From a virus: a DNA stretch of 27,748 nt. The notes under the pieces were generated by a model. It had not been told where the DNA came from and did no database searches. It saw only the letters and a program-made list of their open reading frames with translations. A program made the translations under genes and the position numbers. Numbering within the stretch: the stretch's first letter is position 1; each line of letters opens with the position of its first letter. Where the stretch lies: the IMG/VR virus record IMGVR_UViG_3300011271_000095, positions 1-27,748 of that record; one strand, given 5' to 3'. Shown here one piece after another: positions 5,742-24,936 of this stretch.

Positions 5742-6932
5742 TCATGCCCCGATCGTGATCTTTGCACCGCTCGACAGACCAGCAGCAAGGCCAAGCGACT
5801 TCGTGGCATTGATCAAATTGTTCGTGAATTGCTGGTCAGAACTCAACTGCATCTGAGCAATCGAGTTCAATGCTGCCGACGCTTGCCCGGTCTCAGCAAG
5901 TGCGTTGGTCATATTCTGTTGAATCATCGTTGCGGTTTGCTGAGTCACCTGCGAATCGATCACAGCTTCGATTTGCGGCCAACGGGTATCCTTCGTCGGG
6001 TCCTGCACACCCTGATCAAAGAGCGCTTGCCGCCACTTATTGGTCAGGTCTTGCTTCATCTGCCCGAGAACTGCAGTCTGGCCTGCGTTGAGGTTGCCGG
6101 CCCGCGCGCTGGCTAGGTCCGCCTGCCCTTGCTGTGACAGCGCTGTCGCCTGCCCCTGCAACTGTTGCGCCGACGATGGTAGTTGTGCCGGTCCCATGCC
6201 CAACGCGAGCGCTAGCGGTGCGCCCGCTAGCGCCCATTTGCCGATGTTGCCCCATCCGCCCAATGTATTGACAATGCCGCCTCCACCGCCTGCGGCATTC
6301 GGGCCGGCGCCAGTCAAACCAGCCCATTCTTCGCCCTGGGTAAACGATGGCGCCGCGGTGCCTGTAGTAGCGCCAGCCCCGGTCGGCGCCACTCCAGCGC
6401 CACTAGACGCAGACGGCGCGGCAAAGCCGGCGTCCGCACCCGTAATACCGGCAGAGGTGCCGCTGATGTCCGCCGCCCCGGCGCCGAAAGTGTCAAAGTT
6501 GGCAATGCCTGGGGCGCTCAGGACATCGGACCCGAGCCCGGCCCCGGTGATATCGAAAGCCGAAGGAGCGAACGACAGGGCGTCGGCTCCCAACTCCGGA
6601 GCGAACGAAAGCGCGCCACCGGCAAGATCGGCGCCGCCAAGCGCCAGAGCGTCGCCCCCGATCAATCCGCCGGCCGCGTCGAAGCCAATGCCGACGCCGG
6701 GTGCGAGTTCCGCTCCAGCAAAAGCCGCGTCCGCCCCAAGGCCGCCGGCCAACTCGGCGCCGCCAAGCGCCGCGCCAATTTCCGGCAGCACGAAGGGGGC
6801 TGCAATCGCCCCTAAACCTAGGCCAAGTTCAAGTTGCTCCTGTGGATGGGCGAGGAAAGACGACGGGGCGTGACTGAAGTCAGTCCCAAGGTTGGACCAG
6901 TTTCCCTCAAAGAAATCAGTAAGAACACTCAC
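5742..6932 (-). CDS. Ala/Gly-rich virion-type protein with conserved C-terminal motif
   Basis: The start is GTG 6932 (MSVLTDFFEGNWSNLGTD), two bases after the preceding stop. An N-terminal amphipathic element is followed by a long low-complexity Gly/Ala region (about residues 35-235) with membrane-prone pieces. The C-terminal 110 residues are well ordered and Gln rich (QMKQDLTNKWRQALFDQG, TRWPQIEAVI at 316-325, then QQTATMIQQNMTNALAE). The motif D-x-RWPQ-hydrophobic also occurs in the 481-aa protein at 7358..8803. Architecture and position after the tail spike suggest an internal or tail-associated virion protein; this is inference. Base composition is GC rich over the repeat region. Confidence 0.6.
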   Translation of the reverse strand: MSVLTDFFEGNWSNLGTDFSHAPSSFLAHPQEQLELGLGLGAIAAPFVLPEIGAALGGAELAGGLGADAAFAGAELAPGVGIGFDAAGGLIGGDALALGGADLAGGALSFAPELGADALSFAPSAFDITGAGLGSDVLSAPGIANFDTFGAGAADISGTSAGITGADAGFAAPSASSGAGVAPTGAGATTGTAAPSFTQGEEWAGLTGAGPNAAGGGGGIVNTLGGWGNIGKWALAGAPLALALGMGPAQLPSSAQQLQGQATALSQQGQADLASARAGNLNAGQTAVLGQMKQDLTNKWRQALFDQGVQDPTKDTRWPQIEAVIDSQVTQQTATMIQQNMTNALAETGQASAALNSIAQMQLSSDQQFTNNLINATKSLGLAAGLSSGAKITIGA

Positions 6933-13440: not shown

Positions 13441-14370
13441 TCACCCCACGGCCCTGGCGACGCGACGTTGCAGCGTTATGTGATACGGGTTTGGAAATCT
13501 AATACCTCCCGCCGTCGTGATGATGCGAGGAACCAAAGTATCGTATTTAACTTCCAACTGTTGCGCTTGCGCGAAGTTTTGGTGCTTGTACAGCAACAAA
13601 GACGCGGCCTTCCATTGCACCGCACGCGCCCATGGGTCGATTATCTGCGTGTCAACGTCGGTAGTCGCAACGAGTGGGGCCGGCATGAAAATGGTATCGA
13701 ACTCAGCGAGGTAAACTTGATCGGGTGGACGTTGAATATAGATTTGCTGCCCTTGCTGGTGATGCGTGAAAACATTTGGCGGCCCTTGGAATCCTATCAC
13801 GTTCCACATGCGCGGATACGCTTGGAATAGCGTGAAATCCAGATAGCTCATAGACTGCCGCCGCCCGTTCCACGTAAACGACAGCGGCATCACGGCCAGC
13901 GGATTGCCGATCGTTGTCGAGAGCGGATTTGATTGGAACAACGGCACAGCGGTTGCGGCGGCTCCAGAACCGACGCCGCCGACCGTGATCGTCGGGACTC
14001 CGGTGTAACCCTGTCCCCATCGGGTCAGGGTTATTGACGTAAGCGAGCCGGACAGAAGGTTGCCAACCCCGAGTGCCGTTACCCCGCCCGCCGGGGCCGC
14101 TGAGAACGTCACCGGGACGGTTGCGCCGGTCCCGTAGTTAGAACCGCCCGCAGTGACCGTAGCGCCAACCACGGCCCCGTTAAGACCGTAAATCTCCACA
14201 CCCGGCAACAGCTGCACGCCGGTGACGTTTTGCCGCACGCACCACATATCCCGCGCCGCGTCCAGGCGCGCGTCGTTGATCCGGGAAATCACACGCGACA
14301 GAGGCCAGCAACTCGCGGTAGAGTCGTGGATGATTTCCTGAACGTCGGCGATGTAGTCGGAGAGCAACAT
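13441..14370 (-). CDS. Head-tail adaptor-like protein with Gly-rich beta domain
   Basis: I choose ATG 14370 (MLLSDYIADVQEIIHDSTAS); the frame extends seven codons upstream without a better ribosome site. Residues 1-45 are helical (WPLSRVISRINDARLDAARD), the typical opening of phage adaptor proteins that sit under the portal. Residues about 66-145 are the beta repeat (GSNYGTGATVPVTFSAAP, then GQGYTGVPTITVGGVG). The C-terminal half has SYLDFTLFQAYPRMWN, QIYIQRPPDQVYLAEFDTIF and a helical end (VQWKAASLLLYKHQNFAQAQ). Location between capsid and gp10-like genes fits a connector protein. Stop is TGA. Total 309 residues. Confidence 0.65.
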   Translation of the reverse strand: MLLSDYIADVQEIIHDSTASCWPLSRVISRINDARLDAARDMWCVRQNVTGVQLLPGVEIYGLNGAVVGATVTAGGSNYGTGATVPVTFSAAPAGGVTALGVGNLLSGSLTSITLTRWGQGYTGVPTITVGGVGSGAAATAVPLFQSNPLSTTIGNPLAVMPLSFTWNGRRQSMSYLDFTLFQAYPRMWNVIGFQGPPNVFTHHQQGQQIYIQRPPDQVYLAEFDTIFMPAPLVATTDVDTQIIDPWARAVQWKAASLLLYKHQNFAQAQQLEVKYDTLVPRIITTAGGIRFPNPYHITLQRRVARAVG

Positions 14371-14583
14371 GAAGCACCACTTTGATGACAAATACGGTCA
14401 ATGGGGCTCAGCCTTACATCATGGAGTTTACGTTGAACCGATTGGTAAATCTAGGAGTCGTCGCAATTGTCACTGCGGATGCAAAAAACGCTCAACGCAC
14501 CGCGCTATGGCTAACGGAGTGTGCCTATCTTCCAGTTGCGAAATGGAAATGTGGAGATTTGCACGTAAATTTGGCTCCACGTC
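14371..14583 (-). other. Intergenic gap of about 210 bases
   Basis: No well-supported gene. On the minus strand a 36-codon frame from GTG 14578 ends at TGA and lacks a ribosome site. On the plus strand a frame beginning at ATG 14421 (MEFTLNRLVNLGVV) runs into the minus-strand gene and is probably chance. The gap is long for this tightly packed region, so it may carry a promoter for the tail genes. I could not find a convincing -35/-10 pair. Confidence 0.35.
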
Positions 14584-15452: not shown

Positions 15453-15607
15453 TGCACCAAATTCGGTTCGAATTTCATCACAGCAAATCCTTTAGATCGG
15501 TCCCAAAGTAAGGCCAAACGTCCGACCAATAAACACCACGCATTGCGGTTTCCCTCAAAGATTAGAGGACCGCATTTTAAGCGTTTTCCGTAAGGCGTGG
15601 TGACCAT
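15449..15607 (-). CDS. Small protein (52 aa), coupled to beta-repeat gene
   Basis: ATG 15607 overlaps the stop of the 396-aa gene as TGATG, and its own TGA overlaps the next ATG. The product is MVTTPYGKRLKCGPLIFEGN, then an aliphatic and Trp-containing stretch (AWCLLVGRLALLWDRSKGF) and MKFEPNLVQ. The middle might be a short membrane or buried helix. An overlapping 21-codon frame (MRGVYWSDVWPYFG) in another register has a GAGG ribosome site, so the region could encode that instead. The double overlap favours the 52-codon frame. Confidence 0.5.
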   Translation of the reverse strand: MVTTPYGKRLKCGPLIFEGNRNAWCLLVGRLALLWDRSKGFAVMKFEPNLVQ

Positions 15608-16797
15608 CACTGCACCATCGGCTGGAGAATTGAAGTGTCAACCCGGCCGCCCAAGCCTGTGTTCGTAGCGGTGATAGCTGTTGTACCGGCCCCGCTAATG
15701 AAAACAGTTCCGCCTTGTATGCCGAAGCCGGGGTCCTCAACGCTCATATTACCTGCAGCGCTAGTGATCAAACCACGAATCGGTCGAGGGAAAAATGTGT
15801 TGTTGTTGTTCGTTCCGACGATCAAGCCGAGCGAGGTAATCGCCGGGTCGTTAACAACGGCAGCGGTTCCGCCGGTGCCGGTGATGGTCGCGCCGGTCGC
15901 GCAGAACGACATAATCGCTGTCGCCGCCGCAGCGCCGAGCGAGGTGCCGCCGAAGGTGATGGCAGGGACGGTGTTGCCGGCATAGCCATTGCCGAAATAC
16001 GTCATCACGATCGCGGTCAGCGTGCCGGAACCGGTCAGTGCTACGCCAGTGAGCAGAGCGCCGGTGGTTCCGCTCTGAATATTGGGCTGATACGGTGAAC
16101 CGGTCCAAACGTTGTTCGGGTGGATGAGGCCAGGCGCCGGTACGGTCTGCGGCGTGTCGCCGGTGAACCTGATCGCCCCCTGATAGAACATCGGTTCCGG
16201 GATGATGTAGAACTGCGGAATCGACGTATAGCCGGCGCCGGGATTGGACTGAACGACGGTACTCAGCACGCCAGCCGCCGTAATCGTACTCGTGAATGTT
16301 GCCTGCACGCCGCCGGGCGGGGGAGGATCACAGCAAATCGCGGGCGGGACAAGGAATCCGGAACCGCCTTGCGTGACCGTAGGAGCGGGAACCGTTCCGC
16401 CGACGACGACATAGCCTTGCGCCGTAGCGGTCACACCGCCGGCCGCTGGCGCTGCAAAAGAGACCGTTGACCCGGTCTGATTCGGGCCGATGCCGTTGGT
16501 ACCGCCGGAACCTGCGTTGGTGATGTTGCCGCCGACGACAACACCTGACAGATTCACCAAGCGATAGTTTGTTCCATCAGCTGAAATCTGCTCCCATGTA
16601 TTGGGGCCGGCATAGTTTCTCCAAATCGCGTTGGTGGGGTCCCACCATTCGAGCACGGTCTGAGAACCTGTCGTGACTAAAAACTCTCCGGACGGCGGAT
16701 AATATATTCCACCTGACGCCAATGTGACAACTTGCGGCGCTTGGGTGTTTTGAGGAGAACCGGACGGAAGCGGAAATACACCACGAATCTGTGCCAT
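15607..16797 (-). CDS. Gly-rich beta-repeat virion protein next to capsid gene
   Basis: Start ATG 16797 (MAQIRGVFPLPSGSPQNTQA), ten bases after the capsid stop. Residues about 25-85 form a beta domain (GGIYYPPSGEFLVTTGSQTV; LEWWDPTNAIWRNY) resembling phage head-fibre or decoration proteins. Several Gly-rich repeats follow at about 86-200 and 247-300, including QGGSGFLVPPAI, NPGAGYTSIPQF and YFGNGYAGNTVPAITFGG. The C-terminal 70 residues are Thr/Gly rich. The same repeat occurs in the next two large tail genes. Position directly after the capsid suggests a capsid decoration or head fibre. No enzyme motif. Confidence 0.6.
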   Translation of the reverse strand: MAQIRGVFPLPSGSPQNTQAPQVVTLASGGIYYPPSGEFLVTTGSQTVLEWWDPTNAIWRNYAGPNTWEQISADGTNYRLVNLSGVVVGGNITNAGSGGTNGIGPNQTGSTVSFAAPAAGGVTATAQGYVVVGGTVPAPTVTQGGSGFLVPPAICCDPPPPGGVQATFTSTITAAGVLSTVVQSNPGAGYTSIPQFYIIPEPMFYQGAIRFTGDTPQTVPAPGLIHPNNVWTGSPYQPNIQSGTTGALLTGVALTGSGTLTAIVMTYFGNGYAGNTVPAITFGGTSLGAAAATAIMSFCATGATITGTGGTAAVVNDPAITSLGLIVGTNNNNTFFPRPIRGLITSAAGNMSVEDPGFGIQGGTVFISGAGTTAITATNTGLGGRVDTSILQPMVQ

Positions 16798-16806
16798 GTG
16801 AGAATC

Positions 16807-17820
16807 TCAAATTGGAAGGAATTGAAGACCGGCGAACTTGCCGTGACACTTGGGTTTTACGTTGACCAACTCCATCAAACTCAAAATGGCGCTGATCCAG
16901 CCGAATTGGTTGTTCGGGAGAGTCGATTCAAATCCGCTGAACGAAAAAGCCGCCCTTTCATGCAAAAACAGATTCAGATAACTCGTGTTGATGAGGTAAA
17001 TAGTTCCCTCTGGGCAATACACATCGGCATAAAACGGTATGCCGGCAATGTCGAGAGATTGAAAAGAGGAATGTCCGACGAAGTTTCCGGAATCAAGTTT
17101 GTCGGACGGATTGATCGTATACCGCTCTTGCGGTACGAAGTCCTCCGCTAGCAACGCCCACGATCCGGCTCCCATAATGCCGATTGTAGGAAGTTCTCCG
17201 GTCGTTTTCGTAACCTGTGCGATATACTGAATCATCAGGTTACGAGTAGGAATAACGTTGCCGGTGTTGTTGACGAACGTCGATTTCCAAAACGTATTTG
17301 TGAGGCGAGGAATGCCTCCGTAGGAGTTTAGAAAAGTGCCGTCGTCAACTGCCCCTGGGAGCCCAACTAACTGTTGCGTGTTGGCGATGTTGTTGAACAA
17401 CGATGTCGCGAAAGCATCGATACTGACGTTTGTTGCGTCGTTAAACCTAGCATCGATCAGCGGCACGACACCATAATCGACCTGCACAAGTCCCTCGAAG
17501 CCAAGAAACGGAATCGGAGTCACGAATGCCTTCAAGTTGAATTCAGCGTTCTGAATTCCAGGGGTGGCGCCGGGTTGCTGGAATGTGCCGCTGTAGTCGG
17601 TCCATTGCCCCGAGACCATCGGAGCGCCCTGCACTGGCGCGGTGATCGGGGAGAGGCCACCGCTCGCAACTTGCGCAGCAGACAACAGCGCACAAATCAG
17701 CGGCGCCGCTTTCCAAATCTGCACATACACGCGGGGCATGATGGCGCGACGAACGACCGCCGTTAATTCTGCGGCTATGGGACCTTGAGCCGGGACGATT
17801 CCGGAGCCGTACTGCGGCAT
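16807..17820 (-). CDS. Major capsid protein (HK97-fold type)
   Basis: The 337-residue product starts MPQYGSGIVPAQGPIAAELT. AGGAG lies eight bases before ATG 17820, overlapping the TAG stop of the scaffold-like gene. Characteristic capsid features are the N-terminal arm (AVVRRAIMPRVYVQIWKAAP), the basic/hydrophobic core GVVPLIDARFNDATNVSIDA, and a later domain (GSWALLAEDFVPQERYTINP). It follows a scaffold-like gene and precedes beta-repeat and connector genes, the expected order. The length is in the normal range for HK97-fold coat proteins. The upstream scaffold gene ends with TAG in the same frame as this ATG. Stop is TGA. Confidence 0.85.
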   Translation of the reverse strand: MPQYGSGIVPAQGPIAAELTAVVRRAIMPRVYVQIWKAAPLICALLSAAQVASGGLSPITAPVQGAPMVSGQWTDYSGTFQQPGATPGIQNAEFNLKAFVTPIPFLGFEGLVQVDYGVVPLIDARFNDATNVSIDAFATSLFNNIANTQQLVGLPGAVDDGTFLNSYGGIPRLTNTFWKSTFVNNTGNVIPTRNLMIQYIAQVTKTTGELPTIGIMGAGSWALLAEDFVPQERYTINPSDKLDSGNFVGHSSFQSLDIAGIPFYADVYCPEGTIYLINTSYLNLFLHERAAFSFSGFESTLPNNQFGWISAILSLMELVNVKPKCHGKFAGLQFLPI

Positions 17821-17832
17821 TTTGTCACACTC

Positions 17833-18414
17833 CTATTGTGCGTGAAACGCGCCCGGCAACCGGGTGCGCTTAAACTCTGTGATGACCTGAATCGCTGCGT
17901 TGCGTGATGCGCCCTGCGGATTCTTCCGAAAATCATCGAACGACAGCATCTTGCCGTCCTTGCCGGGAACGGTCGGGAATTCCCAGGTCGCGCCGCCGTG
18001 CTCGATTTCTGGAGGCGGCTTCATGTTCGGATCGTCTGGAGGATTTCTCTGCGCGTAAATATCGGCCGCGGCTTCCCAATCGTTGACGCCGTAATGCGTC
18101 ATCAGAGTTTCGACTTGCTTGACCTGATCGTCGCTGAATCCGCGCCGCTTGATCACGTCGCTTTTCTGAGTTTCGCGCGACTGTTGGGCGCGCTCCATTT
18201 TCTCGGCAAGTCGCTCGTTTTCGAATTTCTGCGTAAATGCGTTGAACTTTTGCTCTAAAAACACATCCTTGAACGCGCCGGCAGTTGTTGGGTCCACCTC
18301 TTTGACAAGATTTGCGAACTGCGATCTCGTCTTTTCGTTGTGAGACAGATTGAACGCTAGGCGAGACAGCCTGTCCATATCTTGCGGGGAGAGTCGAACG
18401 AGCGGAGCCGTCAT
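17833..18414 (-). CDS. Scaffold-like capsid assembly protein
   Basis: ATG 18414 overlaps the previous stop as ATGA. The 193 residues (MTAPLVRLSPQDMDRLSRLA) are charged and highly helical: LSHNEKTRSQFANLVKEVD, KFNAFTQKFENERLAEKMER, AQQSRETQKSDVIKRRGFSD, then a second helical unit (VKQVETLMTHYGVNDWEAA) and a C-terminal basic segment (ITEFKRTRLPGAFHAQ). Coiled-coil helices with a basic end directly upstream of the capsid gene is the scaffold signature. Homology was not tested. The TAG stop at 17833-17835 is followed four codons later, in frame, by the capsid ATG. Confidence 0.65.
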   Translation of the reverse strand: MTAPLVRLSPQDMDRLSRLAFNLSHNEKTRSQFANLVKEVDPTTAGAFKDVFLEQKFNAFTQKFENERLAEKMERAQQSRETQKSDVIKRRGFSDDQVKQVETLMTHYGVNDWEAAADIYAQRNPPDDPNMKPPPEIEHGGATWEFPTVPGKDGKMLSFDDFRKNPQGASRNAAIQVITEFKRTRLPGAFHAQ

Positions 18415-18674
18415 TTCACCGGCCTGTTTGGAATCGCAAGACCGTCGCCAAAACCGCGCAGGTGGCGCAAGTCTTTGCGGTCATAATCTCCGGACCAACC
18501 ATTGCTGCCGTAGGTCCTGATTGTCTTTGGAGGCGAGGTGTCGCGGCCGAAGGAATGGACGCGCGCGTAATGCTCGGAACCGGGCGGATTGACAAACATG
18601 ACCTTCTCGGTGCGAGCTTTGAACAGACCCTCATCACTTAAGCCGGCCGGTTTTGCGAGCGGGCGATCGGTCAT
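18411..18674 (-). CDS. Small basic phage protein, unknown function
   Basis: ATG 18674 overlaps the stop of the 41-aa gene, and its TGA overlaps the scaffold start. The 87 residues start MTDRPLAKPAGLSDEGLFKA and are Gly/Arg/Asp rich with many turns (SFGRDTSPPKTIRTYGSNGW, KDLRHLRGFGDG). No membrane segment or enzyme motif. It is flanked on both sides by four-base overlaps in the head operon, so it is probably an assembly-related virion protein. Family not recognised. Confidence 0.55.
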   Translation of the reverse strand: MTDRPLAKPAGLSDEGLFKARTEKVMFVNPPGSEHYARVHSFGRDTSPPKTIRTYGSNGWSGDYDRKDLRHLRGFGDGLAIPNRPVK

Positions 18675-18796
18675 TCACGCTGCCCCATATGGTAGGTTTT
18701 GACGAAGCGGCACGCGCCAGCCAACGCCGATCCTGGCCCAAGTCCGTATCGACGGTACAAACGATATTGTTCAATCAGCTTCACGATAACTCGCAT
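18671..18796 (-). CDS. Small basic protein (41 aa)
   Basis: ATG 18796 overlaps the stop of the 64-aa gene as TGATG, and the TGA overlaps ATG 18674. The product MRVIVKLIEQYRLYRRYGLG continues GPGSALAGACRFVKTYHMGQ then RE. A basic amphipathic helix (LIEQYRLYRRYGLG) followed by Ala-rich residues is a pattern shared by tiny phage proteins beside capsid genes. Function unknown. It is too short for homology to be convincing; the double overlap is the main support. Confidence 0.5.
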   Translation of the reverse strand: MRVIVKLIEQYRLYRRYGLGPGSALAGACRFVKTYHMGQRE

Positions 18797-18990
18797 CAGA
18801 TCGGATTCCGCCCAGCCTGCGGCCCCTTCGGTAGCGTCATCTTGTTCTTGTCGAACTCGAATTTTGACGCAGACGAACCGCCGCCGTACTTCATGTACAT
18901 CGGCGGATTACGAAATTGCCCGTCCTCCATCAGGCGACGGTCAAGACTGGCGAGATCAACGCCTTTGGGTTTGAGAAAGTCACCTGCCAT
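18796..18990 (-). CDS. Small protein in head operon (64 aa)
   Basis: ATG 18990 has AGGAG six bases upstream, overlapping the TAG stop of the Acb2-like gene. The product starts MAGDFLKPKGVDLASLDRRL, then EDGQFRNPPMYMKYGGGSSA, and ends KGPQAGRNPI with TGA. The segment NPPMYMKYGGGSSASKFEFD suggests a turn-rich structural protein. No family recognised. The frame is the same as that of the upstream Acb2-like and Pro/Gly-rich genes, separated from them only by TAG codons. Confidence 0.6.
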   Translation of the reverse strand: MAGDFLKPKGVDLASLDRRLMEDGQFRNPPMYMKYGGGSSASKFEFDKNKMTLPKGPQAGRNPI

Positions 18991-18999
18991 CGTCGACTC

Positions 19000-19224
19000 C
19001 TACTTGAATAGTTGAGCGCGAACAGCGCAGTCTTTGGCTTCGAGCAACTTGCGAAGCGCCGTAGTTCTCTCCGGATTTCGCGGCAAAGTTTCCACGATCC
19101 AGGTTGCCATATCCCCGAACGTCTTACTGATCGTCTGCAACTCTGGCGAGAGATGCGCATAAACAAAGAACTGAATCAGCGGTTCCGCATTTCGCGTGGT
19201 TAAATCAGGATGCACGTCTGTCAC
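19000..19224 (-). CDS. Acb2/Tad1-hairpin-like small protein, candidate CBASS antagonist
   Basis: GTG 19224 start has AGGA seven bases upstream; the 74 residues are MTDVHPDLTTRNAEPLIQFF, VYAHLSPELQTISKTFGDMA, TWIVETLPRNPERTTALRKL, LEAKDCAVRAQLFK. The two-helix pattern with HLSPELQTISKTFG and LPRNPERTTALRKLLEAKDC resembles a phage family that I believe carries the Acb2/Tad1 hairpin domain. Acb2 sequesters the cyclic nucleotide signals of CBASS (and Tad1 relatives those of Thoeris) and so blocks host immunity. Assignment here is by pattern only, with no structure or search, and activity is not shown. It lies in the capsid operon, so it would be made late. Stop is TAG. Confidence 0.5.
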   Translation of the reverse strand: MTDVHPDLTTRNAEPLIQFFVYAHLSPELQTISKTFGDMATWIVETLPRNPERTTALRKLLEAKDCAVRAQLFK

Positions 19225-19233
19225 TGTCTTTTC

Positions 19234-19671
19234 CTATGCTTCTGGCGCGATCGGGGGGGGGCCGCCCGGCGGCATCCCTCCAAGAGGTGGCCCGCCTCCC
19301 GGACTCGGAATGCCAGATGGCGGACCGCTAAGGCCGCCTAGGCCACCGCCGGGCATGGTTGGCGGTACAGGCAAGGGTTTGGGCTCCGGTTCCTTTTTGG
19401 CCGCTGTGAACACCCCGTTGAGCGCGCTGATTGCCCTCGAAATGGCGTTCCACTCGCCGCCGTCCTTGGGAAAGCCGGCGCCGATCTCCAAAAGCTGATC
19501 AATGACCTTGGAGACACGCTGCTTGCCTTGCGCCTGCATCCCCGCGCCCGTGCCGGGCGAGACCATGGGCGAGGCGCCGGGGCCGCTCGGGCCGCCGATC
19601 GGGGACTTCATCATTCCGGGGGGGCCGCCACCGGGAAGTGGGCCGGGAGCCGCGCCGGGCATTAGCGCCAT
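19234..19671 (-). CDS. Pro/Gly-rich head-module protein with helical core
   Basis: ATG 19671 (MALMPGAAPGPLPGGGPPGM) is the first codon of the head module; an upstream TGA rules out a longer frame. The N-terminal 45 residues are Pro/Gly rich. Residues about 50-95 form a helical core (QRVSKVIDQLLEIGAGFPKD, then AISRAISALNGVFTAAKKEP), and the C-terminal 50 are again Pro/Gly rich. The 145 residues end in TAG. Proteins of this style between portal and scaffold are common in podovirus-like genomes; they may be assembly or head-completion factors. No family recognised. The first gene after the control node, so its expression may be set there. Confidence 0.6.
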   Translation of the reverse strand: MALMPGAAPGPLPGGGPPGMMKSPIGGPSGPGASPMVSPGTGAGMQAQGKQRVSKVIDQLLEIGAGFPKDGGEWNAISRAISALNGVFTAAKKEPEPKPLPVPPTMPGGGLGGLSGPPSGIPSPGGGPPLGGMPPGGPPPIAPEA

Positions 19672-20136: not shown

Positions 20137-20291
20137 GATTTCTTCTCCGTTGCTCTTTCCTGCCCGGTGCGGGCAAAATTCTCCTAAAAACGATCGATAA
20201 AACGTTGCATTTCCACTAACCGCTAGAAAGAGCTTGGTCCAAACAAGCGGTTGATGATCGTCTCGCTAGTCTTCATCTCTCTAGTCTTCAT
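20133..20291 (-). pseudogene. 52-codon gene with two in-frame amber codons
   Basis: ATG 20291 overlaps the stop of the 63-aa gene as ATGA. The frame reads MKTREMKTSETIINRLFGPS then SF, TAG (20223-20225), RLVEMQRFIDRF, TAG (20184-20186), ENFARTGQERATEKKS and TGA, which overlaps ATG 20136. Apart from the ambers it is an ordinary charged, helix-like product and is coupled at both ends like its neighbours. Either it has recently decayed, or the TAG codons are read through (or suppressed), or the resemblance is chance. A 6-bp stem-loop begins eight bases after the second TAG. Confidence 0.4.
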
Positions 20292-20295
20292 CTTT
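20266..20295. repeat. 15-bp tandem duplication
   Basis: CTAGTCTTCATCTCT (20266-20280) is followed by CTAGTCTTCATCTTT (20281-20295), 14 of 15 identical. On the minus strand it encodes two nearly identical five-residue units (MKTRE, MKTSE) at the start of the amber-interrupted gene. A slippage-type duplication is the simplest reading. Confidence 0.75.
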
Positions 20296-20479
20296 CGTGC
20301 TCTCGCCCGATGGCGGGGGTTGAGCGGGGACGATGGTATCCCTGAGAGACGATTCCAGTCAATAGCCTATCCAACACCTGTTGACGATCCGCACTCAAAT
20401 TGCCGTTGCAGAGATAAAAGGTGTCCGGAGGCAGAGATTCATCAAAGACGATGGGAATCCCCATAAATGTCATGTCCAT
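20288..20479 (-). CDS. Small phage protein after portal (63 aa)
   Basis: ATG 20479 overlaps the portal stop as TGATG; a GTG just upstream is less likely. The product starts MDMTFMGIPIVFDESLPPDT, then FYLCNGNLSADRQQVLDRLL, ending IGREHER with TGA. The N-terminal hydrophobic strand and DESLPPDTFYLC turn resemble small conserved phage proteins of unknown function. Coupled at both ends. No membrane helix. Confidence 0.6.
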   Translation of the reverse strand: MDMTFMGIPIVFDESLPPDTFYLCNGNLSADRQQVLDRLLTGIVSQGYHRPRSTPAIGREHER

Positions 20480-22233
20480 CACTTCTTTTTGCCTCCGTGC
20501 TGACCGCCCGCAATCATCTTGGCCGCCAACTCAGGATGTTGTGCCAGCGTCTTCTTTTGCTGCCGGCGTCTCTTGCGCAGCGAGTGCAGCAACGTGTCAC
20601 GCGACGGCGGATTCGTCATGCGGATGAAGTCCTCGTCGTCTATCGTCCCAAATTTGCGGTAGAGGACCGCCAATTCGCGCGCCTCATCGCCGAACAACGG
20701 ACTGTGCGAGTGGCCATCAACCCGCATCCTCACGTCCTTCACGTCGCACGGCAGAAACTCATGAGTCTTATCGTTCTCATCCGGTGTAGTTCGCATCTTG
20801 TCGCTGTCGTGCGCCATTTTAAGCTTAAGAGCCACGTCACCTATTTTATTCAACGGGTCTTCAATGCACAACGCAGCCTTTTTGATCCGCCCGGACCCGC
20901 TCTTTTTGAGGTCATGAGAGTGCTGATGCGACCGCACACCCTTTTCGCTGCGTCCCGAAATCACTTCTGTAAGTCCAGACGCCTCCAGAAACATGCCCTC
21001 GAATTTTTCGTATTCGTGGAATAGATCGGCTGGCATGTCAGGCTTCATTTCCTCGACTTTGGCCTGCGGTAATTGATCGAATAAATACGTTCCGGCGCCG
21101 CCGAAAGCGGCCATCTTTTCCTCCGACAGGCCCATGAAACCGGAACCAACCTTAGCCGGATCGGCTTGTCTGTCGAGAATATCGTCTATCTGATCTAGCC
21201 TAACCAACAATTTTTCCTGCAATGGAATCAGCGTATCTATGTGAGCCTTGCCCCAAAAATAGTTATACTTACCGTATGGCTGTATTTTGGAAAATGGGTG
21301 ATCTCCTGGAAAGAACGGATTGCTGTCCGATGTTTTCTTTCCCATTTTTTCGAGTCGGCCGAACAAATCAACCACGTTTTGCGTGGCCTTTTTGTATGCT
21401 GCGATGGTGCGAGCACTATCACCAACAAGTATGTTTGGCTCAATCAGATGAAACACACGATAATCCACGTTCGTATCATCCCATGCCCATAGTTCCGACC
21501 ATCGAACCATCGGAACCTCACTTTTGGGCTGATATGTAGCATTCGGAGAGTAATCAGGATTGACTTGACCGAACAAAGTTCCTGATAGGCTTGACCCGGT
21601 AGACCCGGCAATGATCATACGTTGCAGCATTTCCGGGAACGGCGACATGGATGAAGAATGTTGTACCTTTATTTGAGGTATATTGTCGACGTGACCGGCT
21701 AGTATCAGTTTTCCGACCGCCTTCTGATATTCGATGAAATACGTGTGACAAAAGCAACTTTGTGAATCCAGGTCTGATACACTTTCGTCATAAACTCCGA
21801 AATTGTGCGGAGGAACCAATTCTAAAAACAATTCCTCACGGTCACGATTCCAACCGACCTTCGGAATCATGGTATCGTAAACAATCGACCATGGTATTGA
21901 TTCCATTACCGCTGAAGACATTCCGCAAGATTGGAAATCATCGTTGAAATCATCCTGCAAAGCTATGGATTTTTGCACTTCCAGTTCATCGGCGTTGGCT
22001 GATGCGGAAATATGGTAAAAAGCGTGATCAGGAGCGTACAAAAAAGAACTAACTAGGTCCACATGGCTTTCCAACTTGTTGATCGGAGCCTTTTCATAAC
22101 GATTTGTTCCGAAAAGATAATATTTTTCCCTCCACTGGTATATTTTGTCTCGATCTTCACGAGTCGAAAGGCAGCGCTCGACGAGGTACGTAACGCGCTT
22201 AGCTAGTTCGTCCTCGTCGGTCGGGAAGATCAT
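20479..22233 (-). CDS. Portal protein
   Basis: The 584 residues start MIFPTDEDELAKRVTYLVER and are charged and mostly helical with few Cys. Typical portal features are an N-terminal region with NRYEKAPINKLESHVDLVSS, a central PHNFGVYDESVSDLDSQ beta part, a long wing/stem helix region (TLIPLQEKLLVRLDQIDDIL) and a C-terminal part with GMFLEASGLTEVISGRSEKG and SHQHSHDLKKSGSGRIKKAA. It ends in a basic tail (GGQHGGKKK). The portal forms the dodecameric ring at one capsid vertex through which DNA is packed and ejected. Its place between terminase and head genes and its size fit. No frameshift seen. Confidence 0.8.
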   Translation of the reverse strand: MIFPTDEDELAKRVTYLVERCLSTREDRDKIYQWREKYYLFGTNRYEKAPINKLESHVDLVSSFLYAPDHAFYHISASANADELEVQKSIALQDDFNDDFQSCGMSSAVMESIPWSIVYDTMIPKVGWNRDREELFLELVPPHNFGVYDESVSDLDSQSCFCHTYFIEYQKAVGKLILAGHVDNIPQIKVQHSSSMSPFPEMLQRMIIAGSTGSSLSGTLFGQVNPDYSPNATYQPKSEVPMVRWSELWAWDDTNVDYRVFHLIEPNILVGDSARTIAAYKKATQNVVDLFGRLEKMGKKTSDSNPFFPGDHPFSKIQPYGKYNYFWGKAHIDTLIPLQEKLLVRLDQIDDILDRQADPAKVGSGFMGLSEEKMAAFGGAGTYLFDQLPQAKVEEMKPDMPADLFHEYEKFEGMFLEASGLTEVISGRSEKGVRSHQHSHDLKKSGSGRIKKAALCIEDPLNKIGDVALKLKMAHDSDKMRTTPDENDKTHEFLPCDVKDVRMRVDGHSHSPLFGDEARELAVLYRKFGTIDDEDFIRMTNPPSRDTLLHSLRKRRRQQKKTLAQHPELAAKMIAGGQHGGKKK

Positions 22234-23053: not shown

Positions 23054-23086
23054 TCACCTTGCGTTTTTCTCCGCCGTGTTTCCCAT
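23054..23086 (-). other. Ten-codon relay ORF after terminase
   Basis: ATG 23086 overlaps the terminase TGA as TGATG. Ten codons (MGNTAEKNAR) end in TGA only four bases before ATG 23049. The peptide itself is probably not functional. The arrangement would carry ribosomes from the terminase to the next gene. Confidence 0.3.
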
Positions 23087-24936
23087 CACTGACCCGGTAC
23101 AAGAATGTTCGATTTTCGGAGGTAATTTAATACCAACAGGTCGATCGGCTGATCTCCGCCGCGCCGGTCTATCTCCATCGCCTTCTCGCGCGTCATTCTC
23201 ATCCCGATCAGCATCGGCTGCAACCACTTTCGCCAGCACTCATGCGCCATCGCGGCCGTGACCGCACGGTCATCATTGCCGCCGCCGTCCGCCGAGATGG
23301 ACCCCTCGTTGTTCACGAGCCGGCGCATTTCCTCGATCAAAGGCAGCGACCTAATATGCATCCTACCAAGCTCCACAGCGTCTTTGAAGCGCGCCATCAA
23401 CATACGCTTGATGTCGTCAGTCGTGACGATATGGTAGGCGAGATCGCCGCTCATCGTATCGATGCGTTGATAGTAGAAATCACGCATGTTCTTGAGGCAG
23501 TTCCGTAGCTCAAAATTGTCGCTGGTTGGCGACATCTGGTTGAGGCGATCGCGAACATGCTGCAACTCTGAGAATACCGACTTGCCGGGTCCGTTCAATT
23601 CGAGGATGACGCGTGAATCCTTTTGACCATAAAATCCAGCCAAATGGGCAAGCGCCCACGCGGTCTGGTACGTGGAGAACTCGCTTGTGCAATATTCGGC
23701 AACTTGAACCACACACTCAGAGAACGCTCTCCAAACCTGAATGCAATTATTGTCGGCTTGATCCGAAGATCCAAAGGCTGGGTCACAAGCCACGACATAG
23801 TAACCGAATTTTGACGAATGTTCCCACACACGTAACTCTGCTCGAAGGTCGGTAACATTGTAGACTTCTGTGTCTTCCCATCTGCGAGTGAACTTGTACT
23901 TGTATGTCTGAAACGGTTTCCGGTGTGCGTCACGGGTGATCTGAGTCAGAACCGGAGCGGTGAAGTATTTTGATCCGGTAGATTGAAATGCATCTTCCTC
24001 CGTAAACGGAAACTCTTGATCCATTATTGTTTGATCGTTGGCGAATTCATCCTCAAGCTTCCAGCGATACCAAGATATTTGCTGGAGGCTGATTTCAAAA
24101 CCGTACTGTTGACGTACTGCTCTAACTCGCTCTCGCTCCAGAGGCGACAAGCGATTGTTCGGCGCGAATGCTTGGAATCTGGTATCATCCACATGGAACG
24201 CGTTTCGTTCGTCTCGCCACCATCCGGAGAAGATGAATCGGACGGTTTTTGACTTCTTGGCATCTTGGCACCTATCATAGAAATGGTTGAAAGCGTTGGC
24301 AGTGCTTTCTTCTATTTGTAGACGGTGAGGATAGATTGAAGAAAGAGACGAACGGAACGCTTTGAGGTCATCTGGATTGGCGTAAAACGCAACCTCAGTG
24401 CCGTGAGTATAGTTAGATGCTCCCGACCGACCCAATCCGCCGCCGCTGTTCTCAGCAACGCCTCCGATTAGGTATGCGAAACTTGAGCCATTGCTGAAAA
24501 GCAAGAGGTCGCGATTGTGTTTGACAATGTTAGGTCTGAATTTTCGTCGCTTGCCGTTGACCTTGATCGACGGCGGCATTGACTCAAGCATCATTTCAAT
24601 CAGAGCGCGCCACTTACCGAGCGCCTTTTCTTCGTGCAATATGAAGGTACCAAGCAATCCTGGATAATTGAGGGCATAGAAAAAATCTATCGCCATGAAC
24701 AAGGTGGTCGAGCCTTGTTGGCGACCCTTTAGTATGATGAAAGTAGTGATACCTTCGTCTAAACCTCTGCAAATCTCATTTAATATGTATTTCTGAGACC
24801 CAAGCAAGTTGAAAGAAACTCGCCCATAGTCCTTTGACATGATTTTTATGTAGGAAAGAAACTTTCTGAACTTAGCAATCGGAAACGGAGCAACCTTCGC
24901 TGACTGTGGTGCAAAATTTAGTGCTGACTTAGCCAT
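23086..24936 (-). CDS. terL: Terminase large subunit
   Basis: The 616-residue product starts MAKSALNFAPQSAKVAPFPI. ATPase part: LKGRQQGSTT (residues 69-78) is a terminase-type Walker A, with THGTEVAF (177-184) in the Walker B/motor region and RLQIEEST (205-212) as coupling motif. QEFPFTEEDAFQSTG (307-321) marks the linker. Nuclease part: YYVVACDPAFGSSDQADN (379-396) begins the RNase H-like fold, and DDRAVTAAMAHECW near residue 550 supplies a later acidic site. It packages DNA into the prohead through the portal and cuts the concatemer. The start overlaps the upstream secreted-protein gene by 19 bases, and the stop starts a relay ORF. Confidence 0.92.
   Translation of the reverse strand: MAKSALNFAPQSAKVAPFPIAKFRKFLSYIKIMSKDYGRVSFNLLGSQKYILNEICRGLDEGITTFIILKGRQQGSTTLFMAIDFFYALNYPGLLGTFILHEEKALGKWRALIEMMLESMPPSIKVNGKRRKFRPNIVKHNRDLLLFSNGSSFAYLIGGVAENSGGGLGRSGASNYTHGTEVAFYANPDDLKAFRSSLSSIYPHRLQIEESTANAFNHFYDRCQDAKKSKTVRFIFSGWWRDERNAFHVDDTRFQAFAPNNRLSPLERERVRAVRQQYGFEISLQQISWYRWKLEDEFANDQTIMDQEFPFTEEDAFQSTGSKYFTAPVLTQITRDAHRKPFQTYKYKFTRRWEDTEVYNVTDLRAELRVWEHSSKFGYYVVACDPAFGSSDQADNNCIQVWRAFSECVVQVAEYCTSEFSTYQTAWALAHLAGFYGQKDSRVILELNGPGKSVFSELQHVRDRLNQMSPTSDNFELRNCLKNMRDFYYQRIDTMSGDLAYHIVTTDDIKRMLMARFKDAVELGRMHIRSLPLIEEMRRLVNNEGSISADGGGNDDRAVTAAMAHECWRKWLQPMLIGMRMTREKAMEIDRRGGDQPIDLLVLNYLRKSNILVPGQ

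Follow-up and report, generated by a model that had tools for sequence, protein, structure and literature searches.

Sponge proteins are the phages' way of silencing CBASS, Thoeris and related alarms, and the known sponges also trigger Panoptes. The closest described systems to the locus presented here are the hexamers Acb2 and Tad1, which are represented in the Protein Data Bank by T4 Acb2 (Vs.4, 7uq2), the PaMx33-type Acb2 (p26, 8h2j/8ixz) and several Tad1 entries (7uav, 8kbe and others). The C-terminal helical hairpin of Tad1 is related to the Pfam family PF24729 (Acb2_Tad1_hairpin), small members of which, from Paenibacillus, Mycobacterium, Gordonia and Streptomyces phages, make up phrog_1454. 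Mutagenesis of T4 Acb2 has shown that Y8A is binding-deficient and that T68M lowers affinity (PMC12657230). Tad1 also carries an N-terminal β-sheet domain (PMC12043709), which is missing from the 74-residue protein described below, whose model is all-helical.

The window analysed here is a whole virus record of 27,748 bases, and the gene for this protein lies on its minus strand at 19000..19224. It starts with GTG, in the context CATAGGAAAAGACA-GTG, and an AGGA Shine-Dalgarno-like site (19232..19235, minus strand) is found 7 nt 5′ of the start. As this site overlaps the stop codon of the upstream gene, translational coupling between the two is likely. Both motifs quoted in a preliminary description of the sequence are present in the protein, HLSPELQTISKTFG at residues 24–37 and LPRNPERTTALRKLLEAKDC at residues 47–66. 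Comparison with the three nearest relatives, the sister contigs L001–L003, gives a dN of 0.07–0.12 and a dS of 0.8–1.6, and the resulting dN/dS of about 0.06–0.09 indicates purifying selection. Relatives are also present in 307 phage records (tblastn, E≤0.01; best 1e-22) and encoded in at least 417 viral-contig stretches, and together with the low dN/dS this demonstrates that the reading frame is an intact, conserved and selected gene rather than a product of chance.

The preliminary description had placed the gene inside a capsid operon, which is borne out by a tight minus-strand run of genes that extends from the terminase and portal genes to that of the major capsid protein. The large terminase subunit, TerL (23086..24936; phrog_2 terminase large subunit, E 6.7e-10), is followed by the portal protein (20479..22233; phrog_1216 portal protein, E 2.8e-4), a Pro/Gly-rich protein of 145 residues (19234..19671), the 74-residue protein, proteins of 64 (18796..18990), 87 (18411..18674) and 193 residues (17833..18414), and the major capsid protein (16807..17820; phrog_9953 major head protein, E 8.9e-23), which shares 49% identity with the annotated major capsid protein of MW202825.1. 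All are encoded on the minus strand, and the order around the 74-residue gene, portal gene included, is preserved in all three sister contigs. The Pro/Gly-rich protein is conserved there and has no family; the 64-residue protein, also without a family, is 81–83% identical. The 193-residue protein is encoded directly before the major capsid gene, in what would be the position of a scaffold. The 87-residue protein belongs to no family and is fast-evolving, with 40–43% identity to its syntenic counterparts in L001–L003 compared with 72–98% for nearly all neighbours. For a further 64-residue reading frame (20288–20482, minus strand), between the portal and Pro/Gly-rich genes, no counterpart was found in these contigs. 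Two neighbouring proteins of the structural module (15607–16797 and 13441–14391, minus strand) have Gly-rich repeats in common (for example AGGSNYGTGATVPVTFSAAPAGGVTA and NAGSGGTNGIGPNQTGSTVSFAAPAAGGVTA), as though a single such module had multiplied within the operon.

Searches against PHROG profiles matched the 74-residue protein to phrog_1761 (E 1.4e-24), phrog_5120 (7e-19) and phrog_1454 (0.0035). Judged by its sequence, it is a member of the large unnamed family formed by the first two, neither of which has an assigned function; in the phrog_1761 profile about 76 extra positions precede the part matched here. The 307 phage records are mostly of Vibrio, Erwinia, Acinetobacter, Brevibacterium and Gordonia phages, and relatives also occur in 24 plasmid-collection records. 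Bacterial genome contigs contain a further 195 stretches; they come from many phyla, with Alphaproteobacteria, Streptomyces, Bacteroidota and Acidobacteria among the sources. The hosts of the phages or prophages that carry the family include Proteobacteria, Actinobacteria and Bacteroidota, among others. No paper on phrog_1761/phrog_5120 was found in the literature that was searched, and hundreds of phages carry this gene of roughly 60–75 codons as a 'hypothetical protein'. Across 161 members E52, R58, L60 and E62 are invariant and K59, K64, D65 and R69 are conserved at 99%, a level of conservation far above that found among PF24729-type proteins. Some relatives are longer: in the contig L127 (hairpin match at 6001–6180) a zinc-ribbon-like stretch, CTMCDGTGYKDYAGFGMDPCDH, precedes the hairpin, and a 122-residue relative in Ochrobactrum phage vB_OspP_OH is named Anti-TRAP domain protein in BFVD.

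The protein had been likened by eye to the Acb2/Tad1 hairpin family, and in its literal form this assignment did not hold. The proposed profile search gave no match of the 74-residue protein to PF24729 at E≤1 or ≤10, and the positive control, T4 Vs.4, matched with an E of 7e-20 and 71.4 bits, against a curated cut-off of 27 bits. Relatives come closer, with matches in the right register for AGM1 (E 0.011) and martha 12B12 (E 0.057), although the best score, 16.4 bits, is again below the cut-off. Direct searches of Pfam, PADLOC and NCBIfam with the 74-residue protein returned nothing useful; archaeal Dps matches in NCBIfam (E 0.006–0.012) fell far under the cut-off and were judged to be chance helix similarity.

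It is at the level of profiles that homology over the hairpin becomes apparent, both in PHROG cross-matches and in hhalign. AGM1 gp27, a relative of the 74-residue protein, matches phrog_1454 with an E of 3.9e-6, the PHROG to which bona fide PF24729 proteins such as the Tripp-type protein of L188 (3e-31) and NoodlelyBoi gp26 (8e-23) belong. In the reverse direction, Sunfish gp10, which is annotated 'cyclic nucleotide sequestering protein', matches phrog_1761 at 7.7e-5. Alignment of the 161 family members with 85 PF24729-type members by hhalign gave a probability of 82.5, an E of 1e-5 and a score of 34.7, compared with 19.9 for the best of 100 column shuffles and 12.3 for the reversed family. 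With smaller sets included, scores over 67 columns ranged from 31.6 to 34.7 (probability 77–83%) against shuffle maxima of 18.5–19.9. The PF24729-type profile in turn retrieves T4 Vs.4, Acb2 homolog 43, the PaMx33-type p26 and Tad1 from the Protein Data Bank, which closes the chain to the characterised sponges. The same sequence search with the phrog_1761/5120 profile produced chance-level matches only, Acb2 homolog 43 (E 1.2) among them.

The AlphaFold2 model of the 74-residue protein (pLDDT 88, pTM 0.73) places helices at residues 6–13, 15–20, 27–46 and 51–72, and the predicted protomer therefore consists of a short N-terminal helical part followed by two long helices that run antiparallel and are connected through an LP..E turn. 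The helical hairpin anticipated in the preliminary description is thus present in the prediction, and its layout matches that reported for Acb2 (PMC10419184). When this model was compared with BFVD using Foldseek, its own family came first and 9 of the 14 entries at ranks 7–20 were named Acb2/Tad1 hairpin proteins; these names presumably derive from PF24729 and so are not independent evidence of function. The corresponding search of the Protein Data Bank gave generic helical proteins, with Acb2 and Tad1 absent from the best 50. As a calibration, the model of a true PF24729 protein did rank T4 Vs.4 (7uq2) first, but only at E 0.82; the test is therefore insensitive, and the absence of Acb2 carries little weight, if slightly unfavourable.

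Taken together, the sub-threshold PF24729 matches, the reciprocal PHROG cross-matches, the profile–profile alignment and the AlphaFold hairpin with its BFVD neighbours make a distant sister relationship between the phrog_1761/5120 family and the Acb2/Tad1 hairpins highly probable. The 74-residue protein is accordingly Acb2/Tad1-like in kind and not a PF24729 member by the curated test, so that the earlier likeness survives as kinship between families. That it is instead a generic short helical hairpin, resembling Acb2/Tad1 by chance and sharing no descent with them, would agree with the missing curated Pfam match and the generic helical proteins of the fold search. We consider this very unlikely, given a profile–profile score far above shuffled and reversed controls, PHROG cross-matches in both directions and landmarks that align over the whole length.

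These landmarks follow the same order in PF24729/phrog_1454 proteins and in the 74-residue protein (F-x-aromatic, LA, LP..E(R/K)(S/T), A-x-x-x-L). The two groups also share their size, the predicted layout of two long helices and occurrence in unrelated tailed phages, often near packaging genes. They differ in the N-terminal loop, which is several residues shorter in the 74-residue protein, and in the stretch that reads REKSLAMT.LE..MWAN in the PF24729 proteins and PERT.ALRKLLEAKDCAVRA in its place here. Compared with Vs.4, in which the first long helix and loop are longer, stepwise alignments suggest that E72, A73, A77 and R79 would be equivalent to E62, A63, A67 and R69.

The ligand-stacking Tyr of T4 Acb2, Y8, aligns with residue 22, which is Tyr in the 74-residue protein and Tyr, Phe or Trp in 94% of the 161 members, a match that depends on a loop of different length. 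The ligand Thr, T68 in T4, is not kept: found in 98% of PF24729-type proteins at the equivalent position, it aligns with Arg58, which is Arg in 161 of 161 members. Within the ligand-site region, T51, W59 and N61 of PF24729-type proteins (98, 98 and 92% conserved) are replaced by R58, C66 and V68. The Arg of the REKS motif, which corresponds to R67 of the PaMx33-type Acb2, a residue that helps to hold cyclic trinucleotides, becomes Pro51. Retention of the fold and of one ligand position, with another changed in a fixed way, points to either a different specificity or a different partner.

In the first case the ligand specificity would probably differ from that of the T4 and PaMx33 Acb2 proteins. 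We see about an even chance that the 74-residue protein works on its own as an oligomeric sponge that soaks up a nucleotide-type immune signal, perhaps with such an altered specificity. A more specific form of this proposal, possible but doubtful, is that phrog_1761/5120 constitutes a second sponge branch, capturing a signal missed by the known Acb2 and Tad1 proteins with an invariant Arg/Glu/Asp/Arg stripe standing in for the Thr/Trp/Asn site. In the second case the family would be a sister of Acb2/Tad1 by descent with another job, its hairpin oligomer binding a housekeeping nucleotide or some protein of the host or phage, and not an immune signal. The loss of the Thr/Trp/Asn site is in keeping with this, as are the hints of partner binding in the zinc-ribbon-like fusion of L127 and the Anti-TRAP name. 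The sequence is also very strongly conserved in phages of many phyla, as could be the case with a conserved partner in the host or the virion, and a fixed partner would be expected to constrain the family more than the PF24729-type proteins are. Conservation does not discriminate, however, since the ligand of a sponge is also a constant partner, and the aromatic ligand position is kept in nearly all members; we regard a different job as rather unlikely.

We envisage the putative sponge as working in the following way. Protomers would assemble through the hairpin into an oligomer, in the manner of the Acb2 and Tad1 hexamers, and the N-terminal aromatic together with the conserved charged residues that line the last helix (R58, E62, D65, R69) would bind a negatively charged nucleotide-type signal that the host makes during infection. 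Capture of this immune signal would leave the host's suicide effector untriggered. Being encoded in a late operon, the protein would act as capsid proteins are being produced. Should it prove to be a sponge, a single assay of this small protein would give a large family its annotation and might reveal an undescribed signal; should it not, the existence of one constant partner across phages with such different hosts would itself be a discovery.

The position of the gene between the portal and capsid genes, in an order conserved in L001–L003, could also be taken to mean that it encodes a minor head structural or assembly protein, such as a chaperone, scaffold cofactor, decoration protein or packaging adaptor, that is a hairpin by coincidence. 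In other phages, the large genes close to family members indeed often encode terminase, a major head protein, a head protease or tail fibres. Against this, other members occupy many unrelated modules, adjoining a holin gene, between minor tail protein genes or beside replication genes in the T4-like phage ZZ1, and of 150 loci at most 4 share any one immediate-neighbour family. Such varied surroundings are more in line with a self-sufficient gene that travels between modules than with a component dedicated to the head. The same scan of PF24729-type genes likewise gave terminase and portal, and neighbourhood was therefore rejected as evidence for an assembly role. Neither neighbourhood result is strong, since large phage genes are mostly structural anyway; overall, we think a head protein quite unlikely.

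The same comparison weakens a concern raised in the preliminary description, that late expression with capsid proteins would be unusual timing for an anti-defence protein. The T4 vs.4 gene belongs to a non-structural cluster, in contrast to the head operon seen here, but the vicinity of packaging genes is a location of bona fide PF24729 genes too, and NoodlelyBoi gp26 sits between the capsid protease and capsid genes, so that a capsid-operon position is not odd. The link between CBASS and the capsid, which had been invoked to explain this timing, is a published observation (PMC10419184) that says nothing about the 74-residue gene.

Some phages carry a second hairpin gene. In that of one relative (G014, locus L022) a PF24729-positive gene (33.3 bits) lies about 1.1 kb upstream. 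Among 54 records this is the one case above the cut-off, with three more below it (G030, G037 and G043), and such co-occurrence, taken without a base rate, is suggestive only. In the phage contig L270 a PF24729-positive hairpin gene and a family member lie on the same strand about 1 kb apart (1438–1692 and 2549–2944). Small GPDKT proteins are encoded in viruses that also carry the phrog_1761/5120 family (L272:1477–1689 and L271:1453–1629, both minus strand), and by eye they look intermediate between that family and PF24729; the L272 protein has GPDKT..IR followed by AMWVN (R..R..AMWVNVAVTR), which brings together the family's Arg and the MW.N of PF24729. Finally, in Curtobacterium phage Daddyjeff the gene for gp61 (L105:181–690), whose annotation is cyclic nucleotide sequestering protein, has a nicotinate ribosyltransferase gene immediately after it, and the two may form an NAD-related counter-defence pair.
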